Shown one piece after another: positions 14,727-32,035 of a stretch of 38,906 nt of DNA. The notes below the pieces were generated by a model that saw only the letters and a list, made by a program, of their open reading frames with translations, did no database searches and had not been told where the DNA came from. How positions within the stretch are numbered: the first letter of the stretch is position 1; each line of letters begins with the position of its first letter. Source of the stretch: Oscillospiraceae bacterium (lineage in GTDB: Bacteria; Bacillota; Clostridia; Oscillospirales; Oscillospiraceae); contig JAFXYD010000117.1 in NCBI GenBank assembly GCA_017541995.1, positions 1-38,906 on the forward strand, given 5' to 3'. The translations under genes and the position numbers were made by a program.

Positions 14727-16565
14727 ATGCGTATCCTATACGACAGCCGCGATCCGGAATACAAGAATCCCTTCGGCGTGCTCACCGAGGGGCAGAGCTG
14801 CAGCCTCCGGGTAAAGATCCCCAAGGAGCTGGAGACCCGCTTCGTCCAGCTGGTGCTGGAGCGGGAGGGAAATCCCGCCCTGGAATACCCCTTCTCCTGG
14901 GCCGGAGGCGACGCGGACTACGATATTTTCAAGTGCGATTTCGCCCCCAGCGCCAAGGGCCTGTATTTCTACTGGTTCCGCATCACCGCCAAGACCGGCC
15001 CCTTCCGCCTCTTCAAGCAGGGCAGCGGCACCAATATGGAGGAGGGAGAGCGCTGGCAGCTCAGCGTCATCCCCCCGGACTTCACCGTGCCCGAGAGCTG
15101 GCGGGGCCGGGTCATGTACCAGATCTTCCCGGACCGCTTCGCCCGCTCCGGCAGCGTGGATCTGACGGGGAAGCTGGAGCCCTATATCCTCCGGGAGGAC
15201 TGGGGCGGCCAGCCGGAATACCGCCCCGATCCCGCCACCGGGGAGATCCTCTGCAACGACTTCTTCGGGGGCAACTTCCGGGGCATCCGGGAGAAGCTGC
15301 CCTATCTCCACAGCCTGGGGGTGGGGATCCTCTATCTGAATCCCATCTCCATGGCCTTCTCCAACCACCGCTACGACACCGCGGACTACAAGCGCCCCGA
15401 CCCCATGCTGGGCACGGAGGAGGACTTCCGGGCCCTCTGCGAGGCCGCCCACCGGCTGGATATGAAGGTGATCCTGGACGGGGTCTACTCCCACACCGGG
15501 GCCAACTCCGTCTATTTTGACCGCAACGGCGTCTTCGGCAACGGGGCCGTCTCCCGGGGCAAGGACTCCCCCTACTACAGCTGGTACAGCTTCCGGCGCT
15601 TCCCGGACAAGTACGACTCCTGGTGGGGCTTTGCCACCCTGCCCAACGTCAACGAGCTGGACGAGGGATTCCTGGACTATATCATCCGGGACGAGGACTC
15701 CGTCATCGCCCACTGGCTGCGGCTGGGGGCCGACGGCTTCCGGCTGGACGTGGCCGACGAGCTGCCCGACGAGTTCATCCGCCGCTTCAAGGGCCGCCTG
15801 CGGCTGCTGAAGCCCGACGCCCTGCTGCTGGGGGAGGTCTGGGAGGACGCCTCCAACAAGTCCGCCTACTCCGTCCGCCGCCGCTACTTCATCGACGGCG
15901 AGCTGGACAGCGTCATGAACTACCCCTGGCGCTCCGCCATCCTGGCCTTTCTGCGGGCCCAGGACGACGGCACGGCCCTGGGGGAGCAGATCATGACCAT
16001 TGCCGAGAACTATCCCCCCCAGGTGCTCCAGGTGCTGATGAATTCCCTCAGCACCCACGATACCCCCCGGGTCCTCACCACCCTCATCGGGGACTTCCAG
16101 GGGGACCGGGAGTACCAGGCCAGGGTGCGGCTGAGCTGGGAGCAGCGGGAGTTCGCCTTCGAGCGCCTGCGGATGGCGGCCTTTTTGCAGTACGCCCTGC
16201 CGGGCTGCCCCTGCCTCTACTACGGCGACGAGGCGGGCATGGAGGGCTGCAAGGATCCCTTCAACCGGGGCTGCTTCCCCTGGGGCCATGAGGACCGACG
16301 CTTCGTGGAGTTCTTCCGGGCCCTGGGCCAGCTGAAGAACAACACCCCCGCCCTGCGGGAGGGGACCGTCCGGGTCACGGCGGCGGGGGGCGGCAAGATC
16401 GCCTTCCTCCGCAGCAGCCCGGCCCAGACCGTCCTGTGCTGCGTCAACCGCACCGGAGAGCCCTTCCGCCTCCGGGCCCGCCACAGCCTCATGTCCCAGG
16501 AGAGCTACCGGGACGGGGAGGACTTCGTGGTACACCCCGGCGGCTTTGGATGCTTCGAGCTGTGA
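14727..16565 (+). CDS. GH13 alpha-amylase family glycosidase (neopullulanase/maltogenic amylase-like)
   Basis: A 612-residue GH13 enzyme, likely cytoplasmic (no signal peptide), that cleaves alpha-1,4 (perhaps alpha-1,6) bonds in maltodextrins. ATG at 14727 is preferred to GTG at 14721 because of its spacing from GAGGA. Residues 1-125 form an N-terminal beta domain; the catalytic barrel begins at VMYQIFPDRFARSG. Conserved regions are all present: SNHRYDT, GFRLDVADE with nucleophile D341, LLGEVWED with acid/base E370, and STHDTPR with D445. The C-terminal beta domain ends at 612. Pairing with glgP suggests glycogen or maltodextrin breakdown in which GH13 opens or shortens branches that stop the phosphorylase. 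Exact specificity is not readable. Confidence 0.93.
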   Translation: MRILYDSRDPEYKNPFGVLTEGQSCSLRVKIPKELETRFVQLVLEREGNPALEYPFSWAGGDADYDIFKCDFAPSAKGLYFYWFRITAKTGPFRLFKQGSGTNMEEGERWQLSVIPPDFTVPESWRGRVMYQIFPDRFARSGSVDLTGKLEPYILREDWGGQPEYRPDPATGEILCNDFFGGNFRGIREKLPYLHSLGVGILYLNPISMAFSNHRYDTADYKRPDPMLGTEEDFRALCEAAHRLDMKVILDGVYSHTGANSVYFDRNGVFGNGAVSRGKDSPYYSWYSFRRFPDKYDSWWGFATLPNVNELDEGFLDYIIRDEDSVIAHWLRLGADGFRLDVADELPDEFIRRFKGRLRLLKPDALLLGEVWEDASNKSAYSVRRRYFIDGELDSVMNYPWRSAILAFLRAQDDGTALGEQIMTIAENYPPQVLQVLMNSLSTHDTPRVLTTLIGDFQGDREYQARVRLSWEQREFAFERLRMAAFLQYALPGCPCLYYGDEAGMEGCKDPFNRGCFPWGHEDRRFVEFFRALGQLKNNTPALREGTVRVTAAGGGKIAFLRSSPAQTVLCCVNRTGEPFRLRARHSLMSQESYRDGEDFVVHPGGFGCFEL

Positions 16566-16582
16566 TTGCATTTCGGCAGACA

Positions 16583-16747
16583 ATTGAAAGTTGAAAATTG
16601 AAAATTGAAAGTTGAGGAATCGTTCAAATTGCCATTTGAACGATGAAAATGAAGCGTGCAGCGTACAGTTTGCGTTCATTTCGTTTTGCAAATAGCAATT
16701 TGCAAAACACAATCATTTTCAATTATAAATTATCAATTTTCAATTCA
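16583..16747. repeat. A/T-rich AATTGAAA repeat with two hairpins
   Basis: After the GH13 stop, runs of AATTGAAAGTTGAAAATTG type are followed by two hairpins: CGTTCAAAT-TGCC-ATTTGAACG (16622-16643) and TTTTGCAAAT-AGCA-ATTTGCAAAA (16683-16706). A reverse-oriented AATTTTCAATT motif closes the element near 16740. Similar copies lie at 17538-17606 and 31961-32035. This is the whole content of the gap 16566-16764 apart from the promoter noted next. Confidence 0.82.
16699..16728 (+). promoter_or_regulatory. Candidate promoter of the zinc-finger gene within a repeat
   Basis: TTGCAA (16699-16704), an 18-base spacer and TATAAA (16723-16728) lie 36 bases upstream of the ATG at 16765. The -35 box is part of the repeat's second hairpin. 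Confidence 0.55.
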
Positions 16748-16764
16748 TAGAAGGGAGGTCCGCG

Positions 16765-17541
16765 ATGAAAAAAATAGGCCTCATTACTTTGCTCTCAGGG
16801 CTGGCGCTTACGCTTTTGTTTGTCCTGGTCCGCGGGACGGCCTGGTTCGCGGCGGAGTCCGCCCGGGGCATGTCGGACTTTGCCGAGCTGGTGGAGGCCG
16901 CCTTCCGGGCCGCCATTGTCACGGCGGTCTTCGGCCTCTTCCTCTTCCTGCTGGGCCTGCGGCCCACGGAGCGGGCCCCGGAGAACGACAGCCCGGCCCC
17001 CATGGTCCGCAGCTGGGTCTGCCCCGCCTGCGGCAACAGCAACAGCGAGACCGAGCTGCGCTGCACGGTCTGCGGCGCGCCTAAGGATCAGATCCGGGGG
17101 CCCAGCTGGCGCTGCCCCTTCTGCGGCGGGGAGAACCCGGAGTCGGCGGCGGACTGCCAAAGCTGCGGCGTGCCCCGGAACCGGCCCCTGCTGACCTGGA
17201 TCTGCGAGGGCTGCGGGGCGGAGAACCCCGAGACCGAGACCCGCTGCACCGCCTGCCAGCGCCGCCGCTTCCCGGCGGCCAACAGCTGGAGCTGTCCCGC
17301 CTGCGGCATCGCCAACGACGCCTCCGCCGAGCAGTGCAAGCTCTGCGGGGCCCGGCGCCGGAGCAGCGGCTGGACCTGCGCCTACTGCGGCCGGGAGAAC
17401 CGGGCCGAGCGCCGGGTCTGCGCGGGCTGCGGCCGCCCCAAGGGCCAGCCCAGCGCCGCCTGGCTCTGCCCCGTCTGCGGCACCCAGAACCGGGCCGACC
17501 GAAGCGTCTGCGTGGGCTGCGGCCAGCCCAGAGCAAATTGA
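16765..17541 (+). CDS. Membrane protein with six RanBP2-type zinc fingers
   Basis: A 258-residue protein. ATG at 16765 follows GGGAGG. Two membrane segments (about 3-22 and 47-65) are followed by a short linker and six fingers at 84-103, 115-134, 145-164, 175-194, 203-222 and 233-252. Every finger matches W-x-C-x2-C-x3-N-x6-C-x2-C exactly, the pattern of eukaryotic RanBP2-type fingers, with repeat spacing of 28-31 residues. All 24 cysteines, six tryptophans and six asparagines are in place. With a basic N-terminus (MKK) and arginines after segment two, the fingers should face the cytoplasm. In eukaryotes such fingers bind single-stranded RNA, ubiquitin or Ran; bacteria lack the last two. The function is therefore unknown; RNA or protein binding at the membrane is a guess. 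Ordinary zinc ribbons would lack the W and N. Confidence 0.88.
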   Translation: MKKIGLITLLSGLALTLLFVLVRGTAWFAAESARGMSDFAELVEAAFRAAIVTAVFGLFLFLLGLRPTERAPENDSPAPMVRSWVCPACGNSNSETELRCTVCGAPKDQIRGPSWRCPFCGGENPESAADCQSCGVPRNRPLLTWICEGCGAENPETETRCTACQRRRFPAANSWSCPACGIANDASAEQCKLCGARRRSSGWTCAYCGRENRAERRVCAGCGRPKGQPSAAWLCPVCGTQNRADRSVCVGCGQPRAN

Positions 17542-17606
17542 AAATTGAAAGTTGAAAATTGTGGTGTTTTCAAATTGCCATTTGAAAACATTGGAAATGG
17601 GGACGA
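17538..17606. repeat. A/T-rich repeat with GTTTTCAAAT hairpin
   Basis: AATTGAAAATTGAAAGTTG is followed by GTTTTCAAAT-TGCC-ATTTGAAAAC (arms of 10 bp). The copy begins at the stop codon of the zinc-finger gene. It is nearly identical to 31961-32035 and shares loop TGCC, with altered but still paired arms, with the 16622-16643 hairpin. Confidence 0.85.
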
Positions 17607-17639
17607 AGAAAAGGCAATTTCGGCGCCGGGAGGAACGAA

Positions 17640-17716
17640 TGTAGGGACAAGCCTTGCTTGTCCGCGCTTTCGATATGCTGAAGCCCATCGGCGGACGAGC
17701 AAGGCTCGTCCCTACA
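17640..17716. repeat. Inverted pair of GTAGGGAC hairpins (BIME-like)
   Basis: TGTAGGGACAAGCCTTGCTT (from 17640, arm to 17665) is matched by the inverted copy 17691-17716 ending GTCCCTACA. The 26-base arms differ at two places, both giving G-U pairs. Each arm also folds on itself (GGACAAGC/GCTTGTCC, GGACGAGC/GCTCGTCC). A separate GTAGGGGGCGGCGTCCCCG unit follows at 17752-17778. The gap 17542-17842 holds only these repeats and the ribosome site of the next gene. Confidence 0.85.
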
Positions 17717-17842
17717 ATCATAACCATGACGGAAACGGGACCTTCCCGCCCGTAGGGGGCGGCGTCCCCGACGCCCCGCGTGCCCCGCGGCGGGCGAATT
17801 GAAAATGATTGAAACATGCAAATTGATCTTTCGGGAGGCACC

Positions 17843-18877
17843 ATGAAGAAATTATCCGTTCTGCTGGTTTTTGTTCTGCTTTTGAGCGTCTTTGCGGGCT
17901 GCAGGTCCATTGAGGCCCCGGCGGGCAGCAGCGCCGCCCCGACGGAGCGCGCAAGCGCCCCGGCGGAGAGCAGCGCCGCCCCCACCGAGACCGCCGCACG
18001 GCCCGCGGGGGAGGACGACGGGATCCACCCCATGCTCTTCCACGTCACCGGCCCCGAGGGGGCCGAGGGCTATCTCTTCGGCACCATCCACGTGGCCGAC
18101 GAGCGGGTGAACACCGTTCTGCGCAAGCTGACGCCCTGGCTGGACGCCTGCGACGCCCTGGCGGTGGAGTTTGACGTCGTGGCCTTTGAGAACGACTACG
18201 CGGCCCAGATGGCCTCCGTGCAGCAGTTCCTGCTGCAGGACGGAACCACCGTGGACCAGCACATGCCCAAGGAGCTCTATGAGCGGGCCTCCGCCCTGCT
18301 GGACGAGGCCGGGCTGATGCCCAATATGACCAAGATCTACAAGCTCTCCATGTGGGCCCAGATGGTGGAGCAGGCGGCGCTGATGACCCGCACCGACTAC
18401 AGCATGGAGATCGGCATGGACCGGACGCTGATCCAGCACTGCTACGAAAAGAGCATCGAGGTCCGGGACGTGGAGAGCGCCGAGCTCCAGTACGGCCTGC
18501 TGGCGGGCTTCTCCGACGAGCTGAACCTGCTGCTGATCGAGAACACCCTGGACAGCCTGGAGGACTACGGCCAGGCGATTGACGAGCTCTACGAGACCTG
18601 GCTGGCGGGGAGCTACGAGGCGCTTATGAAGGTCCTGGAGGCCGAGGACGCGGAGGCGGAGGAGCTGAGCGAGGCGCAGCAGGCCCTGCTGGAGGACTAC
18701 AACGACAAGATGCTGACCCAGCGGAACCTGGGGATGCGGGACAAGGCCCTTCAGTGGCTCAAGGCCGGGGACAAGGTCTTCTTCGCCGTGGGCGCCGCTC
18801 ATCTGATGGGCGAGGACGGCCTGGTGGAGCTCCTGCGGGCCGCGGGCTACAGCGTGGAGCAGGTGGAATACCGATAA
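17843..18877 (+). CDS. TraB/GumN family lipoprotein
   Basis: A 344-residue lipoprotein of the TraB/GumN family, which is related to the animal TIKI metalloproteases; bacterial roles are mostly unproven. ATG at 17843 follows GGGAGG. The lipoprotein signal (LLLSVFAGC) puts the lipid on C20. A Ser/Ala/Pro/Thr-rich spacer (about 25-65) is followed by the TraB domain. Both family GxxH motifs are present: GTIH with H83 in LFGTIHVAD, and GAAH with H320 in VGAAHLMGEDGL; the acidic LAVEFD motif lies near 112-117. These are the expected metal-binding places. The protein should sit outside the membrane. A strong terminator follows, so it is probably a single gene; no clear promoter was found in the repeats upstream. 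Confidence 0.9.
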   Translation: MKKLSVLLVFVLLLSVFAGCRSIEAPAGSSAAPTERASAPAESSAAPTETAARPAGEDDGIHPMLFHVTGPEGAEGYLFGTIHVADERVNTVLRKLTPWLDACDALAVEFDVVAFENDYAAQMASVQQFLLQDGTTVDQHMPKELYERASALLDEAGLMPNMTKIYKLSMWAQMVEQAALMTRTDYSMEIGMDRTLIQHCYEKSIEVRDVESAELQYGLLAGFSDELNLLLIENTLDSLEDYGQAIDELYETWLAGSYEALMKVLEAEDAEAEELSEAQQALLEDYNDKMLTQRNLGMRDKALQWLKAGDKVFFAVGAAHLMGEDGLVELLRAAGYSVEQVEYR

Positions 18878-31960: not shown

Positions 31961-32035
31961 GGAATTGAAAATTGAAAGTTGAAAATTGAAAATGGTGGTG
32001 TTTTCAAATTGCCATTTGAAAACATTGAAATAGGG
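31961..32035. repeat. A/T-rich repeat, second copy of the GTTTTCAAAT hairpin
   Basis: GAATTGAAAATTGAAAGTTG and further AAAATTGAAAATG are followed by GTGGTGTTTTCAAATTGCC and its inverted arm, matching 17538-17606 almost base for base over about 60 bases. Confidence 0.85.

Follow-up and report, generated by a model that had tools for sequence, protein, structure and literature searches.

A membrane-anchored protein with six RanBP2-like zinc fingers in a genus of the Oscillospiraceae

Introduction

Zinc fingers of the RanBP2 type (Pfam family Zn_ribbon_RanBP, PF00641) are found in RanBP2/Nup358, Nup153, ZRANB2, and RBM10, and their fold has a pair of crossed hairpins with one zinc between them. 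In Nup153-like Ran-binding fingers, the second cysteine is followed by an L-V pair. In the RNA-binding members, an Asp precedes the Trp, the Asn is followed by an aromatic residue, and there are an Arg pair and two more Asn residues; the RNA contacts named are D4, N14, W17, R19, R20, and N24 (PMC6384913). In the ubiquitin-binding NZF subfamily, a T and an F after the second Cys are described as critical (PMC12383448). An array of two to seven fingers (the number depending on the species) is described for calpain-15 (PMC4631099). In prokaryotes, the finger of ArnA is called RanBP2-type (PMC6509490), and some CxxC zinc modules of bacterial YprA-family helicases are said to resemble such fingers (PMC12458937). 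Among the matches listed from the open-licence PMC literature, no bacterial protein with a RanBP2 array tethered to the membrane was seen.

Here, we describe a bacterial protein with six RanBP2-like fingers behind a predicted membrane hairpin. In the following, the window refers to the whole stretch of DNA analyzed (38,906 nucleotides of an Oscillospiraceae bacterium); coordinates are positions in it unless another locus is named, and the six-finger gene with its segments, the glycogen phosphorylase gene, the amylase gene, and the TraB family gene all lie on the plus strand.

The six-finger gene and its orthologues

The gene (16765..17541) encodes 258 amino acids, with an ATG at 16765, a stop codon at 17541, and a ribosome-binding-like site (GGGAGG, 16753..16758) that was read from the sequence. 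It is a real gene, as is clear from its presence throughout the genus (20 of the 23 genomes, its own included), its adjacency to an amylase gene, and the dN/dS values of seven orthologue pairs, which range from 0.17 to 0.34 for the whole gene and from 0.16 to 0.45 for the finger part. A 417-aa open reading frame on the minus strand overlaps the gene, and a wrong choice of strand or frame was rejected, the plus frame being backed by profiles and orthologues. The sequence-only reading of this DNA had described six fingers that fit W-x-C-x2-C-x3-N-x6-C-x2-C without deviation, and all six indeed match exactly; in none of the six frames does the pattern occur anywhere else in the window. Chance was rejected as its source because 100,000 residue shuffles of amino acids 83-258 gave seven single matches and never more than one. 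A role as a known anti-phage component was rejected, with no PADLOC model matching the protein at E 0.01. Carriage by phages or plasmids was also rejected (the gene was unmatched in the phage and plasmid collections), as was carriage on viral contigs, where 18 pattern stretches were found and none was confirmed.

When the N-terminal 82 residues were compared with 148 genomes, 21 matched at E 0.01, namely 20 of the genus and, weakly (E 0.003), one from elsewhere in the order. As for the genus genomes without the gene, the contig of G013 stops 89 bases past the match to the amylase, G014 has a completeness of 56%, and G019 (92% complete) lacks the six-finger gene as well as the amylase (E 1e-100). 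Ten close loci in named records, which overlap with the genus genomes searched, come from metagenome assemblies called Oscillospiraceae or Clostridia, and four of the ten titles refer to the rumen, omasum, or duodenum of ruminants (water buffalo, cattle, goat, sheep).

The number of fingers ranges from two to seven over the 20 orthologues: six fingers in 15 proteins, five in two, seven in one, and two in two. The conservation of W and N among homologues, on which the sequence-only reading had staked its class assignment, is borne out, with W present in 110 and N in 102 of the 111 fingers. The loop has ten residues in 108 fingers, and all three features occur together in 98, so that the perfect pattern of the window protein is kept less strictly by its orthologues. 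When W, N, and Cys are set aside, 14 positions per finger remain; over these, the identity of the same finger among the 15 six-finger proteins (12 in the case of finger 1) is 0.36-0.65, compared with 0.20 for different fingers of one protein. This conservation is strongest in fingers 3 and 6, and because each finger position has a conservation of its own, the fingers look like specialized parts.

The membrane part

Two N-terminal membrane segments had been proposed ahead of the array, and hydropathy recovers both: 19-residue windows with a mean hydropathy above 1.6 start at amino acids 1-10, 12, and 42-50, which places the first hydrophobic segment at about residues 4-22 (16774..16830) and the second at about residues 45-66 (16897..16962). 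The short loop between them (16831..16896, from the alignment) is predicted to lie outside the cytoplasm by the positive-inside rule; W27 and S37 in this loop are invariant among the orthologues, and D38 and E41 nearly so. The first six residues carry a net charge of +2 in 18 of the 20 orthologue rows (the remaining two rows start upstream of the start codon and are thus no counter-evidence on the N-terminal charge), and an Arg follows the second hydrophobic segment. Since both features obey the positive-inside rule with the fingers inside, the fingers are predicted to face the cytoplasm, the same side as proposed earlier; the topology is thus read from charges.

RanBP2 finger or ordinary zinc ribbon

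The whole protein has Zn_ribbon_RanBP as its top Pfam match (87.1 bits, E 4.4e-25), followed by Zn_Ribbon_1 (63.6 bits) and DZR (PF12773; 60.1 bits, above its cut-off of 27.3 bits). When the fingers are scanned singly, only finger 1 (W84 to C103, 17014..17073; 35.1 bits) and finger 6 (W233 to C252, 17461..17520; 33.4 bits) exceed the RanBP cut-off of 27 bits. Finger 3 (W145 to C164, 17197..17256), the most conserved, reaches 25.5 bits, and finger 4 (W175 to C194, 17287..17346) is a tie between RanBP (20.2 bits) and DUF7577, which is slightly higher in bits (20.5). The best single match of finger 2 (W115 to C134, 17107..17166) is DUF7577 (20.9 bits; RanBP 15.4), and that of finger 5 (W203 to C222, 17371..17430) is Zn_Ribbon_1 (22.1 bits; RanBP 20.7). 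By E-value, RanBP comes first for fingers 1, 3, 4, and 6. Ten ordinary ribbons, whose loci belong to the genus or to one of two further genera, served as a control: scanned singly, RanBP was the best match of none, and among the matches listed it appeared at E 0.05 in at least two.

Over the 20 orthologues, RanBP is the best match in 12 and Zn_Ribbon_1 or DZR in eight; the latter include two near ties as well as both two-finger proteins. The RanBP cut-off is exceeded by 18 orthologues, the two-finger proteins lying below it, and at E 0.001 both ribbon families match all 20 orthologues and RanBP 19 (in one orthologue, L027, DZR scores 20 bits, below its cut-off). Membership of the RanBP2 class, as claimed from the letters, is supported by the profile of the whole protein and weakened by the single scans, where two of six fingers pass, and by the eight orthologues that score best as ribbons.

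A profile built from 67 fingers of 12 of the 20 proteins (every finger chosen for its W and ten-residue loop) was compared with solved structures. Its top match is the RanBP2-type array 9hcj, no stretch of which passes alone, and next comes the archaeal ArnA finger (8s05, 5a8i); the best six further include an RNA-guided nuclease, half of a rubredoxin, and RBM10.

W and N had also been said to be absent from ordinary zinc ribbons. Within the genus this largely holds: among 51 unique C-x2-C-x10-C-x2-C ribbons outside the six-finger family, none has the W and three have the N (the ribbons come from the best DZR matches, i.e., 30 loci, five without a readable ribbon, which gave 63 unique ribbons including 12 from two orthologues). 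Elsewhere in the class, seven of 15 ribbons among the best RanBP matches (18 loci, five without a readable ribbon) carry both residues, as single W-N fingers of other bacterial proteins; the signature is thus not unique to the six-finger family. The RanBP cut-off is exceeded in 14 of the 23 genus genomes and, in each case by the genome of the window itself, in one of 291 class genomes and one of 398 phylum genomes. These two samples overlap and the search scores limited candidates per genome, and since at the cut-off it recovers 14 of the 20 genomes known to have the gene, the rarity figures are approximate and apply to this phylum only. One of two distant genome matches (L049) was rejected as a whole-protein relative; by eye, it reads as a helicase with zinc ribbons.

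The profile results also bear on the foremost alternative, according to which the protein follows the common bacterial design of zinc ribbons joined to a membrane part and plays a role in protein contact; its W and N would have arisen by convergence, without kinship of any kind to RanBP2. We consider this rather unlikely, though it draws on several observations: the ribbon families match every orthologue at E 0.001 and lead in eight, the residue after the second Cys is Gly in 104 of 108 fingers, as in most ordinary ribbons of the sample, and the class and phylum samples hold no RanBP match above the cut-off beyond the genome of the window. Against it stand the lead of RanBP in 12 of 20 orthologues and its scores above the cut-off in 18, compared with none of the ten control ribbons being best matched by RanBP, and the near-universal W of the family, which is missing from all 51 other ribbons of the genus.

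W-containing fingers were also seen in other open frames. A 665-aa open reading frame (L004 982-2979; G000:C107) combines one W-containing RanBP-like finger, with C-x-C as its first pair, with a hydrophobic segment, and long frames in four genomes (G001, G002, G004, and G012) give weak matches of a similar kind. In another genus of the family, a 1306-aa open frame (L029; G077:C147) has three W-containing fingers, two of them of the W-N type.

Origin of the array

In a tree of the neighboring amylase (25 rows), the two genomes with two-finger proteins (G018 and G009) branch first, followed by those with five to seven fingers, with support of 100/99 for the genus and of 96/92 and 93/91 for the early forks. 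The two-finger proteins score as ribbons and their genomes are the first to branch, which suggests that the array grew within the genus from a bacterial double zinc ribbon, from two to five, six, or seven fingers; with a tree of one gene and long outgroup branches, this is suggestive and falls short of proof. Since the two-finger proteins already carry W in all four and N in three of their four fingers, the W-N signature predates the expansion. An old acquisition of a RanBP2 finger may be an alternative origin. The within-genus series of two, five, six, and seven fingers is of interest as an example of how RanBP2-like fingers may come to form a tandem array in bacteria.

Finger histories may differ from that of the amylase in one genome, G005. 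Its amylase groups with the clade of the window (95/92), its seven-finger protein is 37% identical to that of the window, and its first fingers resemble those of G011, G016, and G020, which may reflect gene replacement (loci L024 and L114).

What the fingers may bind

The sequence-only reading had named GGU-RNA and ubiquitin as ligands of eukaryotic tandem fingers and suggested an RNA- or protein-capturing scaffold. For the comparison, the published RNA-contact numbering was mapped to the finger columns (the mapping is our own), and 108 fingers with a ten-residue loop were used (three nine-residue ones were left out). D4, N14, W17, R19, R20, and N24 occur in 6, 4, 0, 3, 28, and 0 of these 108 fingers, respectively, and in 0, 1, 0, 0, 2, and 0 of the six fingers of the window. 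The full Arg pair is present in one of the 108 fingers and the RNA-stacking aromatic residue after the Asn in none; an aromatic residue anywhere in the six-residue loop is found in 14 of the 108 and in none of the window's six. The TF pair of the NZF fingers and the LV pair of the Nup153-like fingers, both after the second Cys, occur in none of the 108. Because the contact residues of the RNA- and ubiquitin-binding subfamilies are absent or rare, the eukaryotic binding roles should not be transferred to this protein, and from the proposed scaffold it is the capture of protein that remains the best guess.

Capture of RNA at the membrane, in which the array would read GGN single-stranded RNA like ZRANB2, FUS, or RBM10 and thereby hold mRNA at the membrane, appears improbable to us. 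Points in its favor are the RanBP2-like sequence class, the tandem arrangement, the rank of RBM10 as the next match of finger 6 behind Nup153, the khpB/jag gene found three genes upstream, which encodes the RNA-binding domains KH and R3H, and an array that is positively charged overall in 16 of the 20 orthologues. The absence or rarity of the contacts speaks against it, as does a net charge of -1 to -4 in the other four orthologues (the whole range being +12 to -4). RNA binding by a mode other than the known RanBP2 contacts may nevertheless occur.

A zinc store or a thiol/redox sensor, whose cysteines at the membrane would bind and release zinc and relay the change through the helices, is a still more doubtful reading. 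The cysteine content agrees with it (24 in the array of the window, 20-31 in the remaining proteins with five to seven fingers), but the finger-specific conservation of non-Cys positions exceeds the needs of storage, and the two earliest-branching forms have just two fingers. Finally, recognition of a ubiquitin-like or Ran-like protein in the manner of NZF or Nup153 fingers is highly improbable given the complete lack of TF and LV pairs, despite the matches to Nup153 and weak Vps36-NZF-N matches (above the cut-off in one orthologue, L022).

Genomic neighborhood

The gene order in the window is yidC-like (PF02096), khpB/jag, the glycogen phosphorylase gene glgP (PF00343; 12279..14675), an alpha-amylase family gene (PF00128; 14721..16565), the six-finger gene, and a TraB/PrgY/gumN family gene (17816..18877) with a lipoprotein-like N-terminus (the lipobox was read by eye). 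The amylase gene lies immediately upstream in all 19 genus genomes that allow the test (in G016 a contig end interrupts the locus), at a distance of 6-369 nt in the 17 genomes for which it was computed (6 nt in G015, 18 nt in G003) and of 199 nt, with A+T-rich repeats, in the window. The TraB gene is the usual downstream neighbor: it follows within about 0.3 kb in 15 of 20 genomes, is set apart by some 4-5 kb of inserted DNA in two (G002 and G021), and was not found within 7.9 kb downstream in G009; in G003 and G018 the contig ends are too near for its position to be judged. Outside the genus, four glgP-amylase loci are without the six-finger gene, and it was not seen by eye in the 1.5 kb downstream of nine amylases. 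No terminator-like site was found in 16400-17900, where shuffles average 2.1. The six-finger gene is probably co-transcribed with those of glycogen phosphorylase and the amylase.

Several repeats and inserts were observed around the gene. A+T-rich intergenic repeats (16577-16745, 17532-17590, and 31963-32020) flank it on both sides and consist of TTGAAAATTGAA-like units and an 18-nt near-palindrome, TTCAAATTGCCATTTGAA, with three copies in the window. At 17637-17719, there is a 29-nt inverted repeat with arms 90% complementary and 25 nt between them, which may be a dispersed element of small size. In the sister genomes G021 (L147 4037-7390) and G002 (L148 1898-5565), the DNA inserted ahead of TraB encodes, as judged by eye, a radical-SAM protein and an ABC transporter.

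A proposed role

The reading that we prefer, to which we give slightly less than an even chance, is that of a genus-restricted, membrane-anchored, multivalent protein-binding adaptor. The two-helix hairpin with its short conserved outer loop would anchor the protein in the membrane, and the six Cys4 zinc knuckles would hang as a string in the cytoplasm, where they may bind one or more protein partners through several simultaneous contacts. That the fingers bind zinc and protein is inferred. The position-specific conservation of the fingers together with the conserved outer loop favors a well-defined complex over a general store of cysteines. Being probably made together with GlgP and the amylase, the adaptor might place or regulate glycogen breakdown at the membrane; glycogen metabolism is a first guess for its setting that comes from gene position and that we hold to be unlikely as it stands, and the 199-nt gap with its A+T-rich repeats in the window speaks against it. 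If the link is real, the protein would serve carbon storage as a scaffold at the membrane in bacteria of the ruminant gut.

A bolder version is that bacteria evolved RanBP2-type arrays of their own, with a rumen genus turning a two-ribbon protein into a cytoplasmic string of five to seven fingers bound to a glycogen-breakdown operon and gathering glycogen enzymes (or mRNA) at the membrane. We regard it as a long shot; if true, the string would be the bacterial counterpart of a pore-side platform for multivalent docking. The family also lends itself to asking whether the RanBP2 signature, stripped of the RNA and ubiquitin contacts, is still a useful binding module.

Comparison with known systems

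The closest described system is the RanBP2-type finger family itself (RanBP2/Nup358, Nup153, ZRANB2, RBM10), with which the six-finger protein shares the signature, the tandem array, and a whole-protein profile score above the cut-off. The PF00641 consensus, W-x-C-x(2,4)-C-x3-N-x6-C-x2-C, fits six of the six fingers of the window and 98 of the 111 orthologue fingers. The six-finger protein differs from that family in the Gly after the second Cys, the membrane hairpin, the bacterial host, and the absence or rarity of the residues that contact RNA, ubiquitin, and Ran. The bacterial ribbon families DZR, Zn_Ribbon_1 (PF13240), and DUF7577 have the same Cys spacing as the array; the first two match all 20 orthologues and are best for those with two fingers, whereas the ordinary ribbons of the genus are without the W and mostly without the N. 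ArnA of Sulfolobus provides the best-matching prokaryotic finger among solved structures, yet it joins one finger to an FHA domain, and no array was matched. The modules of the YprA family, some of which are described as resembling RanBP2-type fingers, sit inside defence helicases. Calpain-15, whose array varies in length over a similar range, is a eukaryotic protease of the calpain family, unlike the bacterial six-finger membrane protein.
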